In this document: in pieces, positions 31 through 32,051 of the stretch
How positions within the stretch are numbered: position 1 is the first letter of the stretch
How the letters are laid out: each line of letters starts with the position of its first letter
Virus record (IMG/VR): IMGVR_UViG_3300042293_000068
Coordinates: 1 to 36,501 of that record
Reading direction: 5' to 3' (one strand)
Source: a virus
Length of the DNA: 36,501 nucleotides
Notes under the pieces: model-generated
What the model saw: the letters and a program-made list of their open reading frames with translations, nothing else
What the model was told of the DNA's origin: nothing
Databases searched by the model: none
Made by a program: the position numbers and the translations under genes

Positions 31-771
31 TTAAGTATTAAAAACGCTTTGTAACGCCCGAATTTCAGCAATTGCATCATTAAAATTAAGTATGCCATGC
101 CTGTACTTTACGCGTATGTGATTGGCTTTTAAATAGGTTGCATAAGCCTGTTCTTTTGTATCAAAGTAGCCAAGGGTAACTACTTCGGGTGTTATTCCTA
201 TCTGCGCCCGCCATTTACCGTACTTATCAAACCATGCAACGCCTGTATATCCTGATTTGTTTCGTGCGCTGAACTTTCTTTCTACTGTAAATGGCTTTGG
301 CTTTCTTGCCCTGCGATGTGCTATTGCCTGTTTATTAAGCAATGCGCGTTCTGTATCCCACCAACGGTTAGCCGCTTCAATAGGGTTATCTATCCAATGT
401 TGTACCCATCTTTCCCTAGTGGCTATGCCGCCCATCATGGTATCAACGGGCATACCACCACGGGCTATGTTCCAACCTATGCGGTTAGTAGGTCTTAACA
501 ATCCTTCTATGCGTTCGCAATATTCACGCGTATCGGCTATTAAAACTATTTCATAGATAAGGTTGTGATGTTTACGAATAGCACGGTTGACCACGGCGCA
601 ATTGGCATCAGGGTTATGGCGTGATGCGCTTTGATGGGCAACCCATCTTTCACGCGCCAACTTGTTCGTAATACCTATATAGCCTTGCTTGGTAATGTCG
701 GTGTGTTCGGGTTTGTGTATCCAATAAACAACACTTGCGCCTTTGGGTTGGTGTTCAGTTCCTATTTGCAT
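31..771 (-). CDS. GIY-YIG endonuclease fused to an AP2 DNA-binding domain
   Basis: Predicted homing-type or accessory DNA endonuclease of 246 residues. The N-terminal half has the GIY-YIG signature as VYWI (15-18) and GYIG (30-33), an Arg-rich helix RERW (40-43), a Glu (E89) and the closing pattern GWN (99-101) followed by GG (105-106). From about residue 172 a second domain begins NKSGYTGVAW and continues with KWRAQI and LGYFDTKEQA, which is the AP2 beta-sheet DNA-binding fold. AP2 domains in phages are usually attached to HNH nucleases, so the GIY-YIG pairing is less common. It overlaps the upstream HNH gene by 17 bp. If the genome closes on itself it is the last gene before the TerS promoter region. 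The nuclease family is well supported; the homing role is inferred. Confidence 0.85.
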   Translation of the reverse strand: MQIGTEHQPKGASVVYWIHKPEHTDITKQGYIGITNKLARERWVAHQSASRHNPDANCAVVNRAIRKHHNLIYEIVLIADTREYCERIEGLLRPTNRIGWNIARGGMPVDTMMGGIATRERWVQHWIDNPIEAANRWWDTERALLNKQAIAHRRARKPKPFTVERKFSARNKSGYTGVAWFDKYGKWRAQIGITPEVVTLGYFDTKEQAYATYLKANHIRVKYRHGILNFNDAIAEIRALQSVFNT

Positions 772-1186
772 TTGTCACCATATACGCGTAATCGTTCTTT
801 GTGTAGTCTTTTGCACCATCTTGGGCGTAGTGCCTGTAGATTCCCTGCTTTTCTAGCCCTGATTTTTGGCTATGGCAATTGTGGCAAAGGGATTGGAATA
901 TGTTGCGGCTGAACGCATGGCTACCTATGTGTTTCCATGCAAACAGATGGTCTATGTGCTTTGCTAATGCCACTATGTTGCGTGATAGGCAACCTTGGCA
1001 TAGGGGTTGTTTGCTTATCTGTACTGCCCTAATGCTTTTCCATAATGGCGTTTGGTATGCGCTATCTGTTTCGCGCCTTGCCATATTGTCGATGCCACCA
1101 TGTTCTAAGCAGTAGGTGTTCAACTTACTTCTAGGGTTCTTACACCCTAATGATGAACACTTACCGTTAGTGGGTACTGATGGCAT
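755..1186 (-). CDS. HNH endonuclease, probably packaging-associated
   Basis: A 143-residue HNH nuclease. The core is a zinc-binding pair C63-x2-C66, the HIDH motif at 77-80, an Asn at 95 and a second CxxCH at 101-105. An extra N-terminal zinc knuckle (C10, C15, C26, H29) precedes it. HNH proteins of this size commonly lie beside the terminase genes of HK97-type cos phages and stimulate TerL cleavage. Here the gene would be just upstream of TerS if the two window ends join, which fits that role. Its start codon overlaps the stop of the upstream gene as TAATG. A free-standing homing nuclease is the alternative. Confidence 0.88.
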   Translation of the reverse strand: MPSVPTNGKCSSLGCKNPRSKLNTYCLEHGGIDNMARRETDSAYQTPLWKSIRAVQISKQPLCQGCLSRNIVALAKHIDHLFAWKHIGSHAFSRNIFQSLCHNCHSQKSGLEKQGIYRHYAQDGAKDYTKNDYAYMVTNANRN

Positions 1187-1584
1187 TAGGCTAGAAATCG
1201 TAGTTTATATAGCGTACTGTTTATCAGGTTAGCAATGGTATCTACTTCGTTCTGTAGTTCGCTATCCTGTGGGAATCCTGATGCGCGGCGCAGGGTCGCT
1301 ACTTCTTCTTTAAGGTAGGTTAGGTAGGTTACGGGGTTATTGTCGGGCAATTGGTAATCCGATTGGTACTTGGTCAATAGTCCGTACTTACCTTGGAACG
1401 CTTCTACGAATCCATCTACTAGGTCGCTTACTTCATCGTAATACGCACCCAATGCCATGTGCTGAGAGTAACTTAGGCTTTGAAAATGCAAGATATGCGC
1501 GTTTGTTACGCTATGCAATAGGCACATTACAAACTGCATTACGGGGTCGCTTTGGGCGGCTTCTGCGCGGAATTTAACCATCAT
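1186..1584 (-). CDS. Dps/ferritin-like protein (resembles DUF5856)
   Basis: A 132-residue all-helical protein of the Dps-like ferritin type. Putative ferroxidase ligands H30, H42, D57 and E61 are spaced 12, 15 and 4 residues apart, the same spacing as H51, H63, D78 and E82 of E. coli Dps. The Dps aspartate four residues after the second His is a Gly here (G46), so iron oxidation may be altered. The protein is shorter than bacterial Dps and lacks its C-terminal region. It sits between two HNH genes and is coupled to both (ATGA upstream, TAATG downstream). Possible roles are DNA shielding, iron or peroxide handling, or a purely structural helix bundle. The family call comes from the pattern; the function is inferred. 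Confidence 0.65.
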   Translation of the reverse strand: MMVKFRAEAAQSDPVMQFVMCLLHSVTNAHILHFQSLSYSQHMALGAYYDEVSDLVDGFVEAFQGKYGLLTKYQSDYQLPDNNPVTYLTYLKEEVATLRRASGFPQDSELQNEVDTIANLINSTLYKLRFLA

Positions 1585-1907
1585 AGTCCTTCGGGTAGTG
1601 GTACATCATTAGGCCATAAACCATATTCTTGCAATTTTCGCACCGTTTTCAAATGTGCGGCAAGCCAAATCTTTTGCCGTTCGGCTTTATCCATTTTGCC
1701 GCCTTGGTCTATTTCCATGTGGCATGAATAGCACAAACTGCTAATTAGGTTGTCATCAGCACGGATGCCGCGACCTTTGCCGCCTTGCCAATTAGTGTGG
1801 GCGGCTACTACCGTTCCGTCATCTGCGCCGCAATGTTGGCATGGAATTTCACGGGCATTGCGTAATAAGTCAGAACTACGGATGTATTGGTGCTTTGGGA
1901 ATCTCAT
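1581..1907 (-). CDS. DUF1364-type HNH-like nuclease
   Basis: A 108-residue treble-clef protein resembling the DUF1364 family found in nin-like regions of lambdoid phages. It shows CxxC at 23-26, a central AAH (35-37), the segment GGKGRGIRADDN (42-53) typical of that family, and a closing CYSCH (59-63). The family is thought to act as a DNA nuclease, perhaps in recombination or in resolving branched DNA. It is coupled by ATGA overlaps to its neighbours. The fold assignment is reasonably firm; substrate and timing are unknown. Confidence 0.8.
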   Translation of the reverse strand: MRFPKHQYIRSSDLLRNAREIPCQHCGADDGTVVAAHTNWQGGKGRGIRADDNLISSLCYSCHMEIDQGGKMDKAERQKIWLAAHLKTVRKLQEYGLWPNDVPLPEGL

Positions 1908-8725: not shown

Positions 8726-9229
8726 ATGAACGATTTATTTGAAGAAGAATATTTGGCAAGGCTACGCGCCGATTACAAAAAAGTTCTTGCGGGTGATGGC
8801 GGTAATTGCCCTTGTTGTGAAAGATGGGGAAAGATAAACACATTCCATCTTGATGAAACAAACGCGCTTTCACTTCTTTGGATGAAGAAGAACGAACAAG
8901 ATGCCGATGGTTGGATTCATACCGCAAAAGTAGCACCGCGTTGGATGATGCGGGCAAAATCATTTTCAACAATGCGGCATTGGGGCTTGGTTGAATCTGC
9001 GCCCAATGATGATAAAGAAAAGAAAGGCGCGGGCGTTTGGCGGCTTACCAACAAGGCGCATAACTTTGTTGGCGGTAAAGTGCGCTTGCCTAAAAAAGCA
9101 TTTGTTTATAACCGTACCTTAGTGGCATACGGCGACCAAGAAATTTACATCAGCGAATGTTTTGGCAAACGGTTTAACTATGAAGAAGTTATGTCGGATA
9201 GGTTCGACATTAACCAAATACAAAGTTAA
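8726..9229 (+). CDS. Conserved phage zinc-finger / winged-helix-like protein
   Basis: A 167-residue protein with NCPCCERWGK near residue 27, an aromatic helix, TMRHWGLVES and VWRLTNKAHNFV, which look like a winged-helix module. A C-terminal beta region FVYNRTLVAYGDQEIYI follows, then GKRFNYEEVM. I recall this as a recurrent phage family without assigned function; nucleic acid binding is plausible. It is last in the plus-strand operon, and its TAA overlaps the TAA of the convergent lysozyme gene. Confidence 0.78.
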   Translation: MNDLFEEEYLARLRADYKKVLAGDGGNCPCCERWGKINTFHLDETNALSLLWMKKNEQDADGWIHTAKVAPRWMMRAKSFSTMRHWGLVESAPNDDKEKKGAGVWRLTNKAHNFVGGKVRLPKKAFVYNRTLVAYGDQEIYISECFGKRFNYEEVMSDRFDINQIQS

Positions 9230-9729
9230 CTTAGAAACAAAGCGCGTTCGGCTTGTCTGCGCTTGACTAATCCTTTTACTTCTTTGCCGCCCGCTTTTGT
9301 CCAACTCATAAAAGCAGTAGCCGCATCATCCCATTCGCCGCGATTTACTTTCATGCGAATGGTTGACCGCTGATAGTTTCCAAGCCCTGCGTTGTATGCA
9401 AAAGAAACAATAGAGTCGAATTTGCTTTGATGACCAACCAAATTAGGGCTAAGTCTAAGAACACCACGTTCAAAAATATCAATGTCCATTTTGAACAAAT
9501 CGACCAATTCCGATTTTTCCCACGCACGGTTATCCCCTTCTTTTAGTTGATAGTCGCCACGGATTAAACCCGTGTAGCCTTCTTTACGAATGTTTGGCAA
9601 GGCTAGTTGGTCGCTATACATTGCGTGTCCGTAGCCTATTGTCCAAATCGCCGCACTACACCGATACGGGCGCGTTCTGTAGCCCTCAAAGAAGTGCATT
9701 AAATGTTCGCCTTCTTTGCTGATTTTCAT
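9226..9729 (-). CDS. Endolysin, GH24 T4-type lysozyme
   Basis: A 167-residue muramidase. The catalytic region is FFEGYRTRPYRCSAAIWTIGYGH with E15, C24 and T30. The spacing (9 and 6) equals the E11-D20-T26 triad of T4 lysozyme, but Cys replaces the Asp. The C-terminal GLVKRRQAERALF motif is typical of the family. ATG at 9729 is preferred over a TTG at 9759 because it overlaps the holin stop as ATGA. There is no signal peptide, so release depends on the holin. Confidence 0.92.
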   Translation of the reverse strand: MKISKEGEHLMHFFEGYRTRPYRCSAAIWTIGYGHAMYSDQLALPNIRKEGYTGLIRGDYQLKEGDNRAWEKSELVDLFKMDIDIFERGVLRLSPNLVGHQSKFDSIVSFAYNAGLGNYQRSTIRMKVNRGEWDDAATAFMSWTKAGGKEVKGLVKRRQAERALFLS

Positions 9730-10229
9730 TTCTTGTTCCACCCGCGTGAACCAAACCAAAAACCAATGATGCCGCCAAGCATAGCCATTTCATCCGAACT
9801 AAAAATAATGTCGGACAAACGAATTAAATCATCCATGTTTTGCACAAGGCTAGGGCGCGTATAGATGTAGTACGCAATCCAAGCATTGATAGCACAAAGT
9901 TCAAAAACAAAAATGTAGGTAACAGTTGGGCGAACCGTGCCAACGTAATTAGCAACCCAAGTAGAAGCGCGTTCTAAAACCTTTTCATCATGCTTTAGTG
10001 CCGCTTCTGTCATTTGTGCTTCTGTTTCCATTGCAATTTGGTCAGTGCGGATTTCTTCAATACGCGCTTGGGCGGCAAACCCTGCGGCGGCTAACTGTAA
10101 TTCGCGTTCTGTTTGCACCCTAGCCAAAGCAAGTTCATGCGCTTGGTCGGCTTTGTTTTGAAAATAATCAAGTAGTTTGGGCAAACCCGAAATGAGTAAA
10201 CCGCCAAGTGTAGAAAATAGTGAAAGCAT
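9726..10229 (-). CDS. Holin of the 3TM (GTA-type) superfamily
   Basis: A 167-residue membrane protein. It has an N-terminal hydrophobic segment (LFSTLGGLLISGLPKLL), a long charged helix (about 20-90), then a membrane span (TYIFVFELCAINAWIAYYIY) and a C-terminal one ending GGIIGFWFGSRGW. This layout matches the GTA_holin_3TM family. It overlaps the endolysin by ATGA, the classical holin-endolysin pair. Confidence 0.83.
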   Translation of the reverse strand: MLSLFSTLGGLLISGLPKLLDYFQNKADQAHELALARVQTERELQLAAAGFAAQARIEEIRTDQIAMETEAQMTEAALKHDEKVLERASTWVANYVGTVRPTVTYIFVFELCAINAWIAYYIYTRPSLVQNMDDLIRLSDIIFSSDEMAMLGGIIGFWFGSRGWNKK

Positions 10230-11847: not shown

Positions 11848-14800
11848 TTAAAGATTAGCGGCATCCAAACGTGCCTTGAGTGATTCAATGATTGCGGTTT
11901 GCTCTTTAATAGCGGCAACCAAAAGCGGGATTACATCTGTGTATTGAACACCAAGATATGCTTGGTCTTGGTCTTTTGATTGCGATTCTGTAACCGCTTC
12001 AGGTAAAACCGCTTGAACATCTTGAGCAATCAAGAAACTTCTTCGCGTTCCTTCTGCATCAGTTTTAAATTTACCAATGACCGCACGAAGTTGGTTTACC
12101 TTGTTTGCCGCATCTGTAATCGGTTCAATAATGTCTTTTAATCTTTCATCAGAACTTGCAGTCCACGATGTTGCGCCTGAAGAAAGATAAACACCACCTG
12201 AAGTGTTGTAAACGAAAAAATTTCCTGTATTTAAAGCAAGTAAATAAGTATTTGCCGCATCATAAAGAAATTGACCTCGGACAGTTCCACCTGTTTGCAT
12301 TGTCAAATTTGCATAGGTTGAGCCGCCAAACTGTAAGCCGCCTGATTGGTAAGTAGAACCTCCAAGCCAAGAAGCCGTACCAACATTAAATGCGCCTGAC
12401 GAATCAATTGTTGCTCTTAATGTTGTACCCGCTTTGAAAGCAATGTTGCCACCAGTTTCGGCGGCAATAGACAATAAACCCAAGCCCGCACTGTAATCAA
12501 TAGTTGCGTAGTAACTAGAATTTGAACCCAATACTAATACATCACCAAGAATGTCTAATTTAGCAGATGCCCTTGCTGATGTGCCGCCAATTAACACATT
12601 GCCTGACGATTGAATCGTCATAGCCTTTACGTTAAAAGTAGAGTTTGGATATGAAGTTACATAGAACCCCATGTTGTAACTGTAATCAGAACCAGTTGCA
12701 TTAGTTTTTTCTGCGGCAATACGCACAAATGTAGTGTAATCTCCCGCATCTCTGTAATTGCCGCCAAGGTCTAATGTCCCACCAACGCCTTGCGCCCAAG
12801 CAGTAGTATCAATGCCATTAAAAGTTGCTTTACCTGTACTCCAAGCAGTTATATTTCCTGTTGAACTAATCTCCATACGCCTAGTAGGAGTTGTAGTAGA
12901 ACTTGCACCCGCAGGTGTTGTGGCAAAAGTTAATGATGTCGCAGTAGTACCCGCATAATTAGAACTAGTATAAATGTCACAACCCAAATAGCCGTTTGAG
13001 CCGTATGCGCCTAATCTAAATCTGCTAACTGCAAAACCTGCGCTATAACCACTTGTAGCGGATAAAACGATTTCATCAGCAGAACCCGTTCCAACAATAC
13101 CAAGTCGGGTAGAAAACTGCGTTGGAAAATCTGTACCAATACCAATAGGTACATTCACCAACATTTGCGTTGATGCAATACTCATGCGTTGAGCATTTGC
13201 ACCATTAGTTCCCGTTAAGAACCTTAATATGCCCGCAAAACCAGTATCGGGTTGTGGCGAACTTCTATCGGTTGCATAAATACCACCAACAATAGAACCG
13301 TAAGTTTGTGGGTAGTTTGAGTAGTCAAGACCCTTGAATACAATTCCATTACCAAAACCATCATACGGATTGGTTGCGCTATAGTTGTTCAAAGTCAACA
13401 TATCTGTGACTGTGTTTCTACTGCTAGTAACTTGGTAAAGTTCTAGTTTTGTTGACGGGTTAGGTGTACCCATACCTACATAGCCGCCACTAATTTGCAT
13501 TGCGATATTATTTACATCAGTAAACGCAGAGTTAATGCCTTGAATTTGTGTAATACCACCTGTCGTTTGAAGTGTGATATATGGATTACCTGCACCTGAC
13601 CTAAATGCGGCTATGTATCCGCTTCCATTATTTTTTTCAACAGTTAAACCAATAATAGGGTTGCTATTTCCAATACCCACATTGATGCCGCTTGCGGTGT
13701 ATAGCGATGTGCTTGTTAAAGTCAATGCAGTTGAGCCAGTAACACCCCAAACATGACCAACACCAAAATCTTGTTTGTAACTTAATGGTTGTATTGCACC
13801 TCGTTGCGTAACCATTTCAAGGCTATAACCATCCGCAGAAAGACCAATATAATTTCTTGTTGAAGAACCAGTAGTAGCAAAATTAAGTTTTGCACCAACA
13901 GTTGCAAGGTCAAGGCTAATCCCATCAAAAGTAAGCGCAGACCCAGTAGCCAATGCACTAGATGAACTTGCATACACAACGCCATTAGCGGTAAACGATG
14001 TAAGCCCTGTACCGCCTGATGTTGTAGGCAATGCAGTACCCGACAAACTAATTGCCAATGTGCCGCTTGTCGTAATGGGTGAACCCGCAATAGACAAGAA
14101 TGATGGGACACTAGCCGCAACGCTAGTTACTGTACCCAATGGGTTTGATGCCCAAGATGTATCCGTACCATCGGTTGTAAGATATTTGCCGCTATTTCCT
14201 GTTTGGCTAGGTGCTAAAGCATTAAACGCCGCATTAGCAGTTGTTTGCCCTGTACCGCCATTAAGAATAGGCAATGTACCCGTTACGCCCGTTGTAAGTG
14301 GTAAGCCAGTTGCGTTAGTTAAAGTAGCCGATGTAGGCGTACCAAGCAAAGGCGTAACCAATGTTGGGCTTGTAGATAGAACTACCGAACCAGTACCCGT
14401 AGAAGTTGTAACGCCCGTACCGCCGTTTGCAACGGGTAATGTTCCGTTAACGCCCGCGGTTAAAGATACGGTATTGTTAACCCATAAATCCGTTGCGCTA
14501 TTGTAAACAAGTGTTTGTCCTGTTACGGGTGTAACAATTGATACATCGTGTATTTCATCAAGTTCATATCCGTTTTGAACTTTGACCAACAACTTACCTT
14601 GCGTTGGGTGCGCGTATTCAACAACGGCAACATAAACCAAGTGGATAGGTGCAGATGGTTTTGTAGCCGTTACCGCGCCCGCTACCGTACCGCTTAAATA
14701 AAGTTGTGCGCCATCGGTGTATGCCGATGTATCCATGTTTGTAAGCAAACCAAAAACGGTTACATATCCGTTTGTATTGTTTGCTAGGTTGCTTGTTATC

Positions 14801-17451
14801 ATGCCCAAGGTTTGCGCGGATGTTGAATCGCCCGATGCAATGGCTTTTGATACGGTTGAAATCTGACCCGTAGCACCTGAGATATAAACAACAGTACCCT
14901 TAGTTAAAGTTGCGCCCGTAGTGTTACGAACTTGCGTTAACAAAGTAGAAGCGGGGGATGCCTCCGATACCGCCAAGTTAACCGTTGTTCCTGATGGCGT
15001 TACAACAATTGAACCATCCGTAGATGTAATAGAACCAATCGCACCAAGATTAGTTAATGCACCGCCCGCCGTACTTGCACCCGTACCACCATCAGCAATA
15101 GCCAAATCTGTAATGCCCGTGATGCTACCGCCTGTGATGGCAACACTATTTGCGTTTTGGGTTGACATTGTGCCAAGCCCTGATACTTGCGTATTGGCAA
15201 TAGCAATCGTTACATCAGATGCGGCGGTTAGTTGACCTTGACCATTTACAATAAATGTAGGTACTGCGCTTGCAGTTCCATAAGGCGCGGCGGTAACGGT
15301 TGTATTAGCGATTGAAATGGTGCGGTTGGCGGCTAGGCTACCACCACCACTTAAACCCGTTCCCGCGCTGATTGTTAGGCTTGTAGGCGGTGCGCCAACA
15401 TCGGTGTTAGACAAAACAACAACGCCCGTGTAGCCGTTAACGCTTGCCACTTGGTCGGTGTTATCTATCTTTTCCCATGCCGTACCGTTGTAGATTGCCC
15501 AATCGCCTACCAACCAATCGGTTACACCGTTAAGGTTTGTATTGCCCGCAACGGAAACAACATAATAATAACCTTTGCTACCAACGCTAGATACAAGCGT
15601 AGGCGTATTGGTTGATGCGTTCCATGCGCCTTGGTAACTTACGCCGCCTTGAATACTTGCAGGGATTTGCGACAAAGGTACAGTACCGCCCGCATCTAGC
15701 GTAGCAACGCCTAGGGCAACGCCCGCGTTCAATACTGCCGCACTACCCAAGCCAAGATTAGAACGCGCATCAGGGGCGTTAGATGCGCCTGTACCGCCAT
15801 CCGCAAGAGCAAGGTCGGTAATGCCTGTGATGCTTCCACCCGTAATAGTTACGGCATTAGAATTTTGCGTTGACATCGTACCCAAACCCGAAATTTGGGT
15901 ATTTGCAATTGCAATCGGGGTTGCCGCCAATGCGGTTAACTGACCTTGTGCATTTACTGTAGCCGTAAGGGTGTTAGATGCAGAACCAAATGCACCCGCC
16001 GTTACCGTTGTATTGGCAATGTCGATTGTGCGGTTAGCAGATAAATCACCGCCGCCCGAAAGCCCCGTACCCGCGGTAATGGTTGTTGCTTGGTTAGCCG
16101 CGTTAAGGTTTGTTCTTGCCCCTGCCGCATCGCTTGCGCCCGTGCCGCCATCAGCAACCGCCAAATCTGTAATACCAGTAATTGTGCCGCCCGTTATCGC
16201 AACCGCATTAGCGTTTTGCGTTGACATAGTACCAAGCCCCGAAATTTGGGTATTGGTAATAGCAATAGGCGTATCGGCTAAAACAGTTAGTTGACCTTGT
16301 GCATTAACCGTTGCCGTTAGCGTTTTAGATGCCGCACCATAAGCCGCCGCGGTAACGCCCGTATTTGTGATGCTGAAACTACGATTAGCCGTAAGGTCGC
16401 CGCCGCCCGACAAACCAGTTCCCGCGGTCAGCGTTAAGGCTTGGTCAGCGGCGTTAAGATTAGTTCTTGCGCCCGCCGCGGTTGTTGCGCCTGTACCGCC
16501 GTTGTCTAAATCTAATGTGCCGCTTAATGTAATTGTGCCGCTTGTTGTAACTGGCCCACCGCTAAAGGACATACCCGTAGTGCCGCCCGATACATCAACC
16601 GATGTAACCGTACCGCCGCCATCCGTTACCCATTCCAAACCCGTAGCCGTGCCATCTAACCCAAGGCGTTTGTTTGCGTTGCCTGTGTACGATGGCAATA
16701 GATTAACCATTGCACCCGCCGCGGTGCTTGAACCAGTACCGCCATCAGCAACGGCAAGGTCAGTAATCCCCGTAATGCTACCGCCCGTGATAGCAACGCT
16801 ACTTGCATCTTGTGTAGCAATAGTGCCTAAACCTAAGTTAGTACGCGCACCGCTTGCAGTAGATGATGCAGTACCACCATTGGCAAGGGGCAATACGCCA
16901 GTAATATCTGCGGTAGAAATATCTAGTAAATCCCAAGATGTATTTGTTCCATCGGTTTTAAGATATTTTCCCGTATTAGTTGTTTGGCTAGGGGCAAGCG
17001 CATTAAAACTTGCGTTAGCAGTTGTTTGCCCCGTACCGCCGTTGACGATGGGCAATGTACCCGTAATATCGGCGGTAGAAATGTCTAACAAATCCCAAGC
17101 GGAATTAGTGCCATCAGTTTTAAGGTACTTGCCTGAATTGCCTGTTTGCAATGGCGCAAGGGCGTTAAACCCCGCATTGGCGGTAACTTGTCCCGTACCG
17201 CCTAAGTTAACGGGAACGGTAGTTAAACTGATTGTTGAACCGTTTACAACAATTGGCGATGTTCCAATATATTGAATTGTGCTGATTGGGCCAACCGTTT
17301 CGGTAGTGCCATCAGAAAATGTAAAAACAAGATACAACGAACCATCAATAACAACGGGTTCAACATCAGTAACACCACGCCCCGCAACGCCGCGGTCAAT
17401 GCGAACAATAAGGTTATTACCGTCAACTACAACAACTTTAGAAATAGCCAT
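11848..17451 (-). CDS. Giant tail fibre with C-terminal S74 intramolecular chaperone
   Basis: A 1867-residue receptor-binding fibre. The N-terminus (MAISKVVVVDGNNLIVRI) is followed by many Gly/Thr/Ser-rich repeats of the type ITDLAVADGGTG and GARTNLNA, a pattern of trimeric fibre shafts. A middle insert (GYYYVVSVAGNTNL, WLVGDWAIYNGTAWEKID) looks like a small globular module. The last 105 residues hold SSDERLKDIIEPI and a C-terminal helix, the peptidase S74 domain that assists trimerisation and cleaves itself off. ATG at 17451, 8 nt after AAGGGG, is preferred over a TTG at 17457. Large fibres next to tail tip J commonly define host range. Confidence 0.92.
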   Translation of the reverse strand: MAISKVVVVDGNNLIVRIDRGVAGRGVTDVEPVVIDGSLYLVFTFSDGTTETVGPISTIQYIGTSPIVVNGSTISLTTVPVNLGGTGQVTANAGFNALAPLQTGNSGKYLKTDGTNSAWDLLDISTADITGTLPIVNGGTGQTTANASFNALAPSQTTNTGKYLKTDGTNTSWDLLDISTADITGVLPLANGGTASSTASGARTNLGLGTIATQDASSVAITGGSITGITDLAVADGGTGSSTAAGAMVNLLPSYTGNANKRLGLDGTATGLEWVTDGGGTVTSVDVSGGTTGMSFSGGPVTTSGTITLSGTLDLDNGGTGATTAAGARTNLNAADQALTLTAGTGLSGGGDLTANRSFSITNTGVTAAAYGAASKTLTATVNAQGQLTVLADTPIAITNTQISGLGTMSTQNANAVAITGGTITGITDLAVADGGTGASDAAGARTNLNAANQATTITAGTGLSGGGDLSANRTIDIANTTVTAGAFGSASNTLTATVNAQGQLTALAATPIAIANTQISGLGTMSTQNSNAVTITGGSITGITDLALADGGTGASNAPDARSNLGLGSAAVLNAGVALGVATLDAGGTVPLSQIPASIQGGVSYQGAWNASTNTPTLVSSVGSKGYYYVVSVAGNTNLNGVTDWLVGDWAIYNGTAWEKIDNTDQVASVNGYTGVVVLSNTDVGAPPTSLTISAGTGLSGGGSLAANRTISIANTTVTAAPYGTASAVPTFIVNGQGQLTAASDVTIAIANTQVSGLGTMSTQNANSVAITGGSITGITDLAIADGGTGASTAGGALTNLGAIGSITSTDGSIVVTPSGTTVNLAVSEASPASTLLTQVRNTTGATLTKGTVVYISGATGQISTVSKAIASGDSTSAQTLGMITSNLANNTNGYVTVFGLLTNMDTSAYTDGAQLYLSGTVAGAVTATKPSAPIHLVYVAVVEYAHPTQGKLLVKVQNGYELDEIHDVSIVTPVTGQTLVYNSATDLWVNNTVSLTAGVNGTLPVANGGTGVTTSTGTGSVVLSTSPTLVTPLLGTPTSATLTNATGLPLTTGVTGTLPILNGGTGQTTANAAFNALAPSQTGNSGKYLTTDGTDTSWASNPLGTVTSVAASVPSFLSIAGSPITTSGTLAISLSGTALPTTSGGTGLTSFTANGVVYASSSSALATGSALTFDGISLDLATVGAKLNFATTGSSTRNYIGLSADGYSLEMVTQRGAIQPLSYKQDFGVGHVWGVTGSTALTLTSTSLYTASGINVGIGNSNPIIGLTVEKNNGSGYIAAFRSGAGNPYITLQTTGGITQIQGINSAFTDVNNIAMQISGGYVGMGTPNPSTKLELYQVTSSRNTVTDMLTLNNYSATNPYDGFGNGIVFKGLDYSNYPQTYGSIVGGIYATDRSSPQPDTGFAGILRFLTGTNGANAQRMSIASTQMLVNVPIGIGTDFPTQFSTRLGIVGTGSADEIVLSATSGYSAGFAVSRFRLGAYGSNGYLGCDIYTSSNYAGTTATSLTFATTPAGASSTTTPTRRMEISSTGNITAWSTGKATFNGIDTTAWAQGVGGTLDLGGNYRDAGDYTTFVRIAAEKTNATGSDYSYNMGFYVTSYPNSTFNVKAMTIQSSGNVLIGGTSARASAKLDILGDVLVLGSNSSYYATIDYSAGLGLLSIAAETGGNIAFKAGTTLRATIDSSGAFNVGTASWLGGSTYQSGGLQFGGSTYANLTMQTGGTVRGQFLYDAANTYLLALNTGNFFVYNTSGGVYLSSGATSWTASSDERLKDIIEPITDAANKVNQLRAVIGKFKTDAEGTRRSFLIAQDVQAVLPEAVTESQSKDQDQAYLGVQYTDVIPLLVAAIKEQTAIIESLKARLDAANL
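15085..16440 (-). repeat. Diverged internal repeats of the fibre gene
   Basis: The shaft contains repeated blocks encoding ISGLGTMSTQNAN, ITGGSITGITDLA, TAGTGLSGGG and ANRTISIANT. Anchor sequences GTTGACAT occur at 15161, 15869 and 16220, so two copies are 351 bp (117 codons) apart and the third about twice that away. The copies have diverged at third positions, so the repeats are old and maintained for protein structure. Confidence 0.75.
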
Positions 17452-17463
17452 TTTCAAATCCCC

Positions 17464-26952: not shown

Positions 26953-27126
26953 TTATGTATTGTATTTACTTAGAACTTTTAAACATACCGCTTCTACTGA
27001 ATCTGCTTCGGCGGCGGCAATGGCATCTTCTAGTTCTTCAGCATCTACTACCATCCCTTGTGCAACCGCATCAAGTGATTGGTAGGTAGTGCTAAGAACT
27101 TCTACGGCTTCTTCTACGGTCATCAT
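26953..27126 (-). CDS. Small acidic protein after the second tail tube gene
   Basis: A 57-residue ORF starting MMTVEEAVEVLSTTYQ, very rich in Ala, Glu and Val (VVDAEELEDAIAAAEADSVE). Its ATG overlaps the tail tube stop as ATGA. No family recognised. Acidic helical peptides in this slot could be chaperones for tube subunits, but that is conjecture. Confidence 0.62.
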   Translation of the reverse strand: MMTVEEAVEVLSTTYQSLDAVAQGMVVDAEELEDAIAAAEADSVEAVCLKVLSKYNT

Positions 27127-27644
27127 GTGTTATTAGACCAACCGTATTGGTTGCCCCTCGGATGAATTGTAAAGTTGCATTTTGCTTCTGCGCTTGGGCT
27201 TGAATCAATTGTGAATTGAGAAACGCGACCATTAAACGCATACGCAACCGTATTAGCACCGTCAACCGCGGCAACCACAAAAGTGCGGTCAACCGTACCG
27301 TTGTAGGCATCAGAACGGATTTGCAATAACGCGGTGTCGCTTGGATTCCAAGCCGCGGTAATGCTTAACGATGTAGGCGCAGATTGCGTAGGAATCTTAT
27401 CACTTTGGCGTGAACCCGCTACGCCAAAAGATGCAACCGCATCATCCTGACCAAAAGCGGGTACGGCTTCCACGGGCAACAAAACACCCGCGCCGCCAGT
27501 ACCGTTAGCCGCCGTGCCTACGATGGTTGTAACTTGCCCTGTCCATACGGAAAGGTTTGCCGTTGTAAGTGGCGTAGGCGTTGCCGCGCTTTGCATATAC
27601 AACGATGCGCTAAAACCCGCTAAAACTTTATTTGGTATAGCCAT
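27123..27644 (-). CDS. Major tail protein paralogue 2
   Basis: A 173-residue tail tube-type protein. It shares with its upstream neighbour the N-terminus (NKVLAGFSASLY), a central block VEAVPAFGQDDAVASFG, AAWNPSDT, and the C-terminus FTIHPRGNQYGWSNN. It differs mostly in a loop around 30-55 (WTGQVTTIVGTAANGTGGAG) that is longer and Gly-rich here. Nucleotides differ mainly at third positions, so this is an old duplicate under selection. It could form a mixed tube, a distal or proximal ring, or a decorated variant. AAGGAATATC precedes the ATG. Confidence 0.85.
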   Translation of the reverse strand: MAIPNKVLAGFSASLYMQSAATPTPLTTANLSVWTGQVTTIVGTAANGTGGAGVLLPVEAVPAFGQDDAVASFGVAGSRQSDKIPTQSAPTSLSITAAWNPSDTALLQIRSDAYNGTVDRTFVVAAVDGANTVAYAFNGRVSQFTIDSSPSAEAKCNFTIHPRGNQYGWSNNT

Positions 27645-27653
27645 GATATTCCT

Positions 27654-28148
27654 TTAGGCGTTGTTAGACCAACCGTAGAGATTTCCACGGGGGTGAATGG
27701 TGAAATTACATTTGGCTTCAGCACTAGGGCTTGAATCAATCGTAAACTGGCTTACGCGGGCGTTAAAGGCGTAATAAACAATGTTTGACCCTTCGGTAGC
27801 ACTAACTACAAAAGTACGGTCAATCAAGCCGCTATAGGCATCGCCACGCATCAGCAAAAGCATTGTGTCGCTAGGATTCCATGCGGCAGTTACGCTAAGT
27901 GATGTTGGTGCGGATTGCGTTGGGATTTTGTCAGATTGACGCGAACCCGCTACACCGAAACTAGCAACGGCATCATCCTGCCCAAATGCGGGTACGGCTT
28001 CAACTGGAATTAGATTACCTATAACTGCAATAGGTGCAACATTTCCAAGGGTTGAAAGTTGGGTAAGTGTTAGTGCGGTAGGTGTCGCGCCCGATTGAGC
28101 ATACAACGCCGCGCTAAAACCCGCCATTATTTTATTTGGTAGTGCCAT
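27654..28148 (-). CDS. Major tail protein paralogue 1
   Basis: A 164-residue tail tube protein candidate: NKIMAGFSAALYAQSG, a central VEAVPAFGQDDAVASFGVAG block, SLSVTAAWNPSDTMLLLMRG, and the C-terminus SPSAEAKCNFTIHPRGN. It lies where the tube gene is expected, directly after the tail terminator. A strong ribosome binding site (GAAGGAACTTTTAAAATG) supports high expression. The tandem copy downstream is clearly homologous over the whole length. Confidence 0.85.
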   Translation of the reverse strand: MALPNKIMAGFSAALYAQSGATPTALTLTQLSTLGNVAPIAVIGNLIPVEAVPAFGQDDAVASFGVAGSRQSDKIPTQSAPTSLSVTAAWNPSDTMLLLMRGDAYSGLIDRTFVVSATEGSNIVYYAFNARVSQFTIDSSPSAEAKCNFTIHPRGNLYGWSNNA

Positions 28149-29629: not shown

Positions 29630-30646
29630 TTAGGCGGCAGACATACGAACGCCCGCGAACGGGTCGCGCACGGTGCTTACCATTCTTTTTTCTGCGTACA
29701 TCGTCACAAAACCCGCCTGTGTTTGTTCAAACATTTGGATGCTCATTTGTTCGGTATCACCGATTGTCAAAAAGCGATTCCAGTTTGCCAAATAGATTGG
29801 GAAATCTGTAGAAAGGTATGCGTTAGGAATAACGGGCCAACCAAAAATGTGACCAATCGCGCAACCATCTTTTTCGCCTAGTTCTAAGAACAAAGGCAAA
29901 CCCGCGGTATCTTTTAACTGGCGCAATGTTTGAATCATTGCGGGGCTAATGTGCCATGCAGTTGAATCTAGCGACCAATATTGCGGGGGCAACGCGTTAG
30001 CCATGTTTACAACTTTGTTGTAAGTTACCGTAGTGCCGCCATTACTAACCGTAGCGATAGTATGTATGCCATTTGTAATAGCCGTACCACTAGAACCGAA
30101 AGCACTAGTAGCACCACTAGCGTACATATCCAAACCGCGCAAGCCATTAGTAGCACCAGTTGATGTAGTGCCGCTACCCGCTTGGTCACTATTAAGAACC
30201 ATTGATTGACCTTCAAGTTGTGCAAACTCAAGTGCCAAATCTTCAACAAGCGTTGCATCAAGTCCATTAACATCACTTAGCACCGCCGTTCTGATTGGCA
30301 ATTGTGCAACCAATACGCGCACGGGCAATTGCCAAATAGAAGTATTCACATTAGGCGAACCGCTATTTGGCGTAAATGTGTAACCCCAAGGGTTTGTAGA
30401 ATTTGCGGCGTTACCAGTTTTGGCAACGAATTGGGCATCAGAACCCGTAACTGTAATTTGGCGTGAGCCTTGGCGCAAAGGGTTTGCTTGACGCAAAGCC
30501 GCAAACGCATCATCAAAAACAACATTACCACCGACACCCGAACCCGAACCAGTAATTGCGCTTGCTTCGCGCAAGTCGATGTTTACTTTGCCGCCTTCGG
30601 TGATGGCTTGTTTGATTCCGTTCAAGATTTTTTCGGTGATAGACAT
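29630..30646 (-). CDS. Second major-capsid-like protein (short paralogue, no scaffold domain)
   Basis: A 338-residue HK97-fold capsid paralogue. It shares with the upstream MCP the segments REASA(I/L)TGSG, FAALR-ANP, NTSIWQL, FPIRTA-like region, NGLRGLD, LPPQYW, and the ending EKR-STVRDP. The 78-residue-longer N-terminal coiled coil of the main MCP is reduced to 25 residues, so it has no scaffolding domain. It probably occupies special positions (for example vertices) or co-assembles. It follows an intrinsic terminator with only 15 bp between the U tract and the ATG, so it depends on read-through. CAGGA lies 8 nt before the ATG. Confidence 0.82.
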   Translation of the reverse strand: MSITEKILNGIKQAITEGGKVNIDLREASAITGSGSGVGGNVVFDDAFAALRQANPLRQGSRQITVTGSDAQFVAKTGNAANSTNPWGYTFTPNSGSPNVNTSIWQLPVRVLVAQLPIRTAVLSDVNGLDATLVEDLALEFAQLEGQSMVLNSDQAGSGTTSTGATNGLRGLDMYASGATSAFGSSGTAITNGIHTIATVSNGGTTVTYNKVVNMANALPPQYWSLDSTAWHISPAMIQTLRQLKDTAGLPLFLELGEKDGCAIGHIFGWPVIPNAYLSTDFPIYLANWNRFLTIGDTEQMSIQMFEQTQAGFVTMYAEKRMVSTVRDPFAGVRMSAA

Positions 30647-30704: not shown

Positions 30705-32051
30705 TTAAGTAGCAGTACCAGTTGAACGATAACGAATCAACGCGTTAGGGTCACGAACCGATGTAGCCAAACGCTTTTCACCAAAGAATGTGATAAAGCC
30801 CGGCGCGGTTTGGTCGTAGCGGCGCATAATCATGTTCAATCTGTCAATGATTGTGTGACCGCGTGTGAAATCACCAAAGAACATTGGATACAAAGAAGTT
30901 GTACCCGCAGAACCAGTAGTTGCTTGTGATGGGTTATCGCAATACTTGTTTACGACAACATCAAAGCCTAACAAATTACCTACGATACCTTCAACCGACA
31001 AACCTTCGTTACGATTAAAGATTGGTGCGCCGTTTGTATCACGCAATGCGCGAATAGCGTTCAACAAAATTGGGCTAATCATAAACTTAGTGTCAGGTGT
31101 CCAATACTGTTGTGGCAAAGCATAAATAGTATTGATTACGTCAACATAAGAAATGTTGTTTGCGCCAACGGTGTTTGCGTTAGTGGTAATTTGGTCATAA
31201 GTAGCAAGGCTATGCAAACCAGTATTAGAACCCGTACCGCTTGTTCCAAATGCCGCCGTAGAGCAAGTACCACCCGCATAGGTAGCGTTAGCACCCGCGT
31301 ATTGGTCTAAGCCACGCAAGCCATTTGTGCCGCCGTAAGGATTAGTGCTTGATTGTGCCGCTTGGTCGTTATTCTGAATCATTGACAAGGCTTCGGCTTG
31401 CGAAAACTCCATCAACATATCGTCAACGACATTGGCTTCCAAACCATCAATATCATCCAAAGCCGCAGTACGGATTGGGAATTGAACATTCAGGTCTTGC
31501 AGAACCAATTGCCAAATGCTTGTGTTTTCAGTTGTGGCATCGCCGTTGTTCTGAATCGCATAGCCCCATGCCGCACCCGCATTACCAGTTTTGACACGGA
31601 ATTGATAAGAAGAACCATCAGTTGCTACGGTGCGTGACAAACCGCGCATGGGGTTAGCCAAACGCAAAGCGGCAAATACGGGGTCATAAGCGGTACGACC
31701 ACCTTGGTTGTTGCCTGAGCCTGTCAATGCTGATGCCTCGCGCATATACGCATCGCGTTGGCTTTCGTCTGCAAAAATTTGCAGTTCTTTTTCTACGCGG
31801 GCATTGCTTTTGTAGAAAGAAACCAATTGTTCTTTAACAGAACGGTTTACATCGCCGCGCACGGATGTAGCGGGCTTGACGATTGCGGGGGCTTGAATAG
31901 ATGCTACTTTGGCTTCCAAAGCAGAAATGGTTTCTTGCATTTCCAGTTTGATTGCTTCAACGGCGGCGGGAATTTTTGCTTCAACGGCGGCAATGCTTTC
32001 GCTTTGCTTGGCTTCGATAGCATCCAATTTTTCAATGATTGCTTGTGACAT
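30705..32051 (-). CDS. Major capsid protein (HK97 fold, with scaffolding delta domain)
   Basis: A 448-residue MCP. Residues 1-52 form a coiled coil (AIIEKLDAIEAKQSESIAAV and so on), the delta-like scaffolding domain expected to be cut off by the prohead protease. The shell domain starts around REASALTGSG (104-113), with FAALRLANPMRGLSR, DLNVQFPIRTAALDDIDG, LPQQYWTPDTKFMISP and GEKRLATSVRDPNALIRY. It lies directly after the protease gene (3-bp gap), and a strong terminator follows. Confidence 0.93.
   Translation of the reverse strand: MSQAIIEKLDAIEAKQSESIAAVEAKIPAAVEAIKLEMQETISALEAKVASIQAPAIVKPATSVRGDVNRSVKEQLVSFYKSNARVEKELQIFADESQRDAYMREASALTGSGNNQGGRTAYDPVFAALRLANPMRGLSRTVATDGSSYQFRVKTGNAGAAWGYAIQNNGDATTENTSIWQLVLQDLNVQFPIRTAALDDIDGLEANVVDDMLMEFSQAEALSMIQNNDQAAQSSTNPYGGTNGLRGLDQYAGANATYAGGTCSTAAFGTSGTGSNTGLHSLATYDQITTNANTVGANNISYVDVINTIYALPQQYWTPDTKFMISPILLNAIRALRDTNGAPIFNRNEGLSVEGIVGNLLGFDVVVNKYCDNPSQATTGSAGTTSLYPMFFGDFTRGHTIIDRLNMIMRRYDQTAPGFITFFGEKRLATSVRDPNALIRYRSTGTAT

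Follow-up and report, generated by a model that had tools for sequence, protein, structure and literature searches.

We concluded, with moderate confidence, that a gene in the viral record IMGVR_UViG_3300042293_000068 encoded a DUF5856-family protein, a shortened mini-ferritin resembling Dps, which probably bound Fe(II) and acted in the infected cell. The whole stretch of DNA that was analysed, 36,501 nucleotides in length, is called the window below. The gene itself was an ordinary member of a known, widespread and little-studied phage family. The value of the case lay in a site of five invariant residues and its register relative to Dps.

The gene was under strong purifying selection (dN/dS 0.04-0.14 against ten close relatives), and therefore it was coding. 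The initial annotation had pointed to DUF5856 as a family to be searched, and the profile search confirmed membership: the window protein matched the Pfam model PF19174 at positions 1-94 of 94 (E 7.7e-19, 69 bits against a cut-off of 34.6) as well as phrog_858 (E 1.1e-26), while a search of the NCBIfam profiles gave no match. With tblastn (E 0.01 or better), no fewer than 756 records of sequenced phages contained a relative; among viral contigs, relatives occurred in at least 593 stretches, and RI.-1 (MobD.6) of phage T4 belonged to the same family (E 5e-33). Two short patterns run against 84,980 bacterial and archaeal genomes matched nine contigs, all of them from MAGs, so that the scan yielded no cellular lineage that could be pursued. 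Within the limits of these two patterns, the family looked essentially viral. The Bacillus subtilis control genome also gave a weak DUF5856 match that stayed under the cut-off. PHROG and RefSeq named the family 'starvation-inducible transcriptional regulator' and other records had 'hypothetical protein'; we found no published account of the biochemistry of its members in the literature searched. Among the BFVD matches to the predicted model of the window protein were A0A481ZC29 and A0A7D3V608 (E 1e-4 and 1e-3, TM 0.75-0.86). These are predicted proteins of two giant viruses of eukaryotes, Pithovirus LCPAC404 and Fadolivirus, and they hint at a family, or a fold, that may extend beyond phages.

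The initial annotation had read H30, H42, D57 and E61, spaced 12-15-4, as the ferroxidase ligands of Dps, with Gly instead of Asp four residues after the second His. All of these residues were present, and the four proposed ligands were identical in every sequence of an alignment of 132 distinct DUF5856 members, the window protein among them, that came from viral contigs and from sequenced phages. A fifth residue, H33, had been missed. It was invariant as well, and no other position was; D115 on helix D was Asp or Glu in all 132 members. In T4 RI.-1 all five were present, with identical numbering. Shuffling of the window protein reproduced the exact H-12-H-15-D-4-E pattern 0.02% of the time, and of the 169 window frames of at least 60 amino acids only the DUF5856 protein contained it. 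The bacterioferritin/rubrerythrin arrangement, in which a single subunit supplies Glu and ExxH ligands from all four of its helices, was not found, and helices A and C held no invariant acid in the 132-member alignment.

Table. Features of the DUF5856 locus in the window (nucleotide positions of the window unless residues are given; Dps residues in E. coli numbering)
Feature	Position	Strand	Remarks
DUF5856 / phrog_858 protein, 132 aa	1186..1584	(-)	ATG to stop; predicted four-helix bundle
Upstream HNH nuclease (phrog_131, YbcO-like)	1581..1907	(-)	stop overlaps DUF5856 start
Downstream HNH nuclease (phrog_144)	755..1186	(-)	start overlaps DUF5856 stop by one base (TAATG)
H30 codon	1495..1497	(-)	invariant 132/132; Dps K48-equivalent position by HHalign; proposed second-site ligand
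H33 codon	1486..1488	(-)	invariant 132/132; Dps H51 equivalent (HW/HF/HL motif) by HHalign and structural offset
H42 codon	1459..1461	(-)	invariant; Dps H63 equivalent (HHalign)
G46 codon	1447..1449	(-)	Dps D67-equivalent position (HHalign); variable
D57 codon	1414..1416	(-)	invariant; Dps D78 equivalent (HHalign)
E61 codon	1402..1404	(-)	invariant; Dps E82 equivalent (HHalign)
Predicted helices of the window protein	residues 14-35, 39-67, 84-99, 108-130/131		AF2 model

The Gly at position 46 was as the initial annotation described it, and it did not speak against a Dps-like site. Across the family this position was Gly in 84/132, Glu in 29/132 and Asp in 4/132 members, T4 RI.-1 being one of the last. 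Among ten aligned Dps proteins, three lacked the Asp at the D67 position and three had His at the K48 position. Since each change occurred in 3/10 Dps proteins, neither the replacement of K48 by His nor the loss of D67 was disqualifying alone. Acids at position 46 and at position 50, one turn on, tended to be mutually exclusive (Fisher p 0.02 for 35 representatives below 70% identity within the 132-member set, uncorrected for ancestry or multiple tests), and we treated this possible alternation as a lead only.

Homology of the DUF5856 family to Dps was very likely, judging by profile comparison. HHalign aligned the DUF5856 profile to ten Dps sequences with a score of 33.0 and a probability of 62%. 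The controls stayed well apart: the maximum was 19.3 for 150 column shuffles and 22.1 for 100 seven-column block shuffles, and the reversed profile scored 18.8. In the resulting register (see the table) all four Dps ligands H51, H63, D78 and E82 had identical counterparts, the first of them H33, and H30 fell on K48. Thus, the Dps-like ligand set claimed at the outset was indeed invariant, whereas its first His had been misplaced. The A-B loop was three residues shorter in DUF5856 than in Dps, and the spacing between H33 and H42 was 9 in 129/132 members. In the other three (L061, L110 and phage JSE, L163) a Gly-Pro-Gly insert brought this spacing to 12, as in Dps, so that the exact 12-15-4 of Dps was obtained when counted from H33. 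Because H33 rather than H30 corresponded to Dps H51, the 12 residues between H30 and H42 were not the homologous Dps spacing; the 12-15-4 count from H30 was a coincidence of the shorter loop with one more invariant His, placed a turn before H33.

When solved structures were searched with the single sequence and with the A1 profile, nothing significant was matched. HP-NAP, which is a Dps, matched weakly (E 0.61), and the ungapped register of this match favoured H30. We set this register aside, since H33 was favoured alike by the broader profile alignment, by the offsets in the structural alignments and by the members bearing the insert. The ferritin-clan profile that had been suggested as a further check did not support the assignment, as the Ferritin Pfam model (PF00210) had no match to the window protein and gave E. 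coli Dps itself 80 bits. We did not class the DUF5856 protein as a Dps, although at the metal site it probably works like one.

AlphaFold2 runs with 19 and 59 homologues predicted the same four-helix bundle (pLDDT 87 and 92, the latter 92.4), which was the fold expected by the initial annotation. The structural neighbours of the model were mostly Dps and other ferritins, and E. coli Dps was superposed with a Z of about 12 and an rmsd of 2.6 over 117 residues. The VIA structural alignment placed residues 13..132 of the model on residues 31..166 of E. coli Dps. Since residue 13 was paired with 31, the offset in helix A was 18, and H33 therefore fell on Dps H51. Neither of the two models had a helix at residues 68-83, where the BC helix lies between helices B and C of Dps, and the predicted helix C was short; thus, a Dps-type assembly may differ here.

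The fold alone was no proof of kinship to Dps, because the Foldseek E-values against the PDB were 0.05 or worse, pectin methylesterase inhibitors were among the top rows, and a Z near 12-13 falls within the range for which the tool warns about helical bundles. These weak values, together with the silent Ferritin model, would also suit a four-helix protein of other descent, whose five residues would bind structural zinc or serve a role without metal. We considered this very improbable, as the profile score was far above that of every shuffle and the members with the insert had the exact ligand register of Dps.

In E. coli Dps, the high-affinity site combines H51 and H63 with E82' from the adjacent subunit; in the low-affinity site K48 and D67 are joined by the adjacent subunit's D78', and a salt bridge between K48 and D67 hinders it (PMC9140674, PMC6150300). 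Along a single predicted helix of the window protein, 15 residues separated H42 from D57, about 22 A by helix geometry, and therefore a single chain could not bring all the ligands to one metal. The initial annotation had named two grounds for refutation, a fold without a four-helix bundle and ligands that do not converge on one metal site. Neither applied: the bundle was predicted, and closure within a monomer was not to be expected, since the ligands of E. coli Dps also come from two subunits (PMC9140674). From the helix distance in the model, it was likely that the site closes only between two subunits, as in Dps.

In the mechanism that we propose, two subunits would pack about a two-fold axis, and H33 and H42 of one subunit with E61' of the other would make up a metal site corresponding to that of H51, H63 and E82' in E. 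coli Dps. H30, which replaces K48, would form or shape a second metal site with D57' and, in some members, with the acid at position 46. From the change of Lys to His and the usual Gly in place of Asp, we infer that this second site is either a real metal site or a place where H30 substitutes for the lost carboxylate. Fe(II) would be the most likely metal, and its oxidation with peroxide or oxygen might take place in the infected cell. Ferroxidase activity, argued by analogy to Dps, had a little less than an even chance in our estimate. Assembly into a dodecamer-like cage may also be supposed from the same analogy. During infection the protein might protect phage replication and packaging, or it might serve as a sensor of iron or redox state.

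The initial annotation had further proposed that the protein shields phage DNA or is packaged as a DNA-binding protein. The stronger form of this idea, that it is a true Dps coating and protecting phage DNA or packaged with it, agreed with the Dps homology by profile comparison and with the PHROG/RefSeq name of the family. However, the window protein was acidic (pI 5.0, charge about -6) and lacked the lysine-rich tail by which basic-tailed Dps proteins bind DNA; its tail of about 13 residues held two basic ones, and the BC helix was absent from the model. The family pI ranged from 4.3 to 6.05, so that none of the 132 members was basic or had a pI above 6.1. For these reasons DNA coating was unsupported. 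DNA binding by the DUF5856 protein seemed highly unlikely from its composition, and the true-Dps explanation was the least probable of those that we weighed. Loss of DNA binding would not be alien to Dps proteins: judging by its title, the Agrobacterium Dps entry 1o9r represents a genuine Dps without it.

Because starts and stops overlapped on both sides, the DUF5856 gene and the two HNH genes flanking it were probably translated together. The run in the window was HNH-DUF5856-HNH-GIY-YIG/AP2, and in a circular or circularly permuted genome it would lead into TerS, TerL and portal genes, where the TerS assignment is one of position beside TerL rather than of family match. An upstream HNH homologue lay within 150 nt in 72/153 relatives with enough flank, and a downstream one within 150 nt in 44/150 loci. 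Many relatives, with identities as low as 49%, kept the order DUF5856-HNH-TerS-TerL, and TerS was at most 2.5 kb downstream of DUF5856 in 33/107 loci with enough flank. Methylophilaceae phage P19250A also kept the DUF5856-HNH order. Thus, the nuclease-rich cassette noted initially was real and conserved, whereas it showed only a position near the terminase genes and not a function.

These overlaps and gene orders could mean that the protein is an accessory of the packaging or terminase module, working with the HNH nuclease, TerS and TerL. This was distinctly improbable in our view, since the position may merely mark where early genes give way to late ones and the contexts differed across the family. 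DUF5856 adjoined rI in T4, RB16, JSE, PKO111 and 44RR, it was near the DNA primase gene in Ackermannviridae phage Vi01, and it stood beside a lysozyme gene in MW202655. No single neighbour was shared between the relatives of the window, the T4-like phages, Vi01 and MW202655, and a family-wide packaging partner was lacking. Without a common partner, a stand-alone activity was a better fit than a function devoted to packaging or to lysis.

The neighbourhood of rI in the five T4-like phages raised another explanation, namely that the family tunes lysis inhibition by protein contacts, a role already proposed for T4 RI.-1, and that its conserved residues hold a structural metal. In T4, overexpression of rI.-1 slightly delayed the collapse of lysis inhibition (Golec 2010, as summarised in the review PMC6832632). 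On the other hand, the lysozyme gene of the window (9226-9759) was far from DUF5856, the Vi01 gene had its place near the primase, and RaK2 has a relative of RI.-1 without the T holin or RI (PMC3622015). Lysis inhibition therefore cannot be the common function of the family and may be an output specific to T4; as a family-wide account it was improbable, if somewhat less so than the packaging role. A further link to lysis had been suggested by a 'holin' annotated downstream of DUF5856 in P19250A, and this was discarded as a misannotated HNH protein: the gene in question (P19250A_0054 of KX815270, 4351-4788 in our stretch L081) was the HNH homologue of the window gene at 755-1186.

The mini-ferritin reading can be placed beside several known systems. 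T4 RI.-1 (T4p103) has a length similar to that of the window protein (128 aa). It differs in having D46, in belonging to the rI lysis-inhibition operon and in coming from another host and phage type. P19250A_0053 shared with the window protein the family, the same downstream HNH gene and the one-base overlap, whereas its identity was 39% and it had Gln at position 46. E. coli Dps and the other Dps mini-ferritins (PF00210) share the four-helix fold and the HW/HF motif in addition to the aligned ligands. In contrast to the 167 residues of Dps, the window protein had 132. Lactobacillus phages and the 'Gratiaviridae' gut phages encode DPS-like enzymes of the ferritin superfamily, for which the handling of iron and oxygen species has been proposed (PMC8008677); these are described as members of the DPS family.

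The five invariant residues gave a concrete metal-site hypothesis that is directly testable in T4, where RI.-1 is an accessory gene of lysis inhibition that lacks a known mechanism and could be an iron-binding protein. If this is true, phage-encoded iron handling would reach far past the phages of Lactobacillus and the gut for which DPS-like enzymes were reported (PMC8008677). A broader and more tentative proposal, which we held to be rather unlikely in its full extent, was that DUF5856 proteins including T4 RI.-1 are phage-specific, shortened, acidic mini-ferritins, probably without DNA binding. In them the invariant His at the K48 position would create a true second metal site, and the handling of iron or peroxide would be coupled to the progress of infection, for example to lysis timing in T4.

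Elsewhere in the window, several structural genes were observed on the (-) strand. The tandem genes at 29630-30646 and 30705-32051 both matched phrog_10, the family of major head proteins of the HK97 type, and would represent a duplicated or two-component capsid. Adjacent genes at 27123-27644 and 27654-28148 encoded nearly the same protein, with the common stretch VEAVPAFGQDDAVASFGVAGSRQSDKIPTQSAPTSLS, and were probably duplicated tail proteins. Finally, the gene at 11848-17457 encoded a repetitive protein of 1869 aa, the C-terminus of which (SSDERLKDIIEPITDA...) looked on reading like a tail-fibre intramolecular chaperone of the peptidase S74 type.
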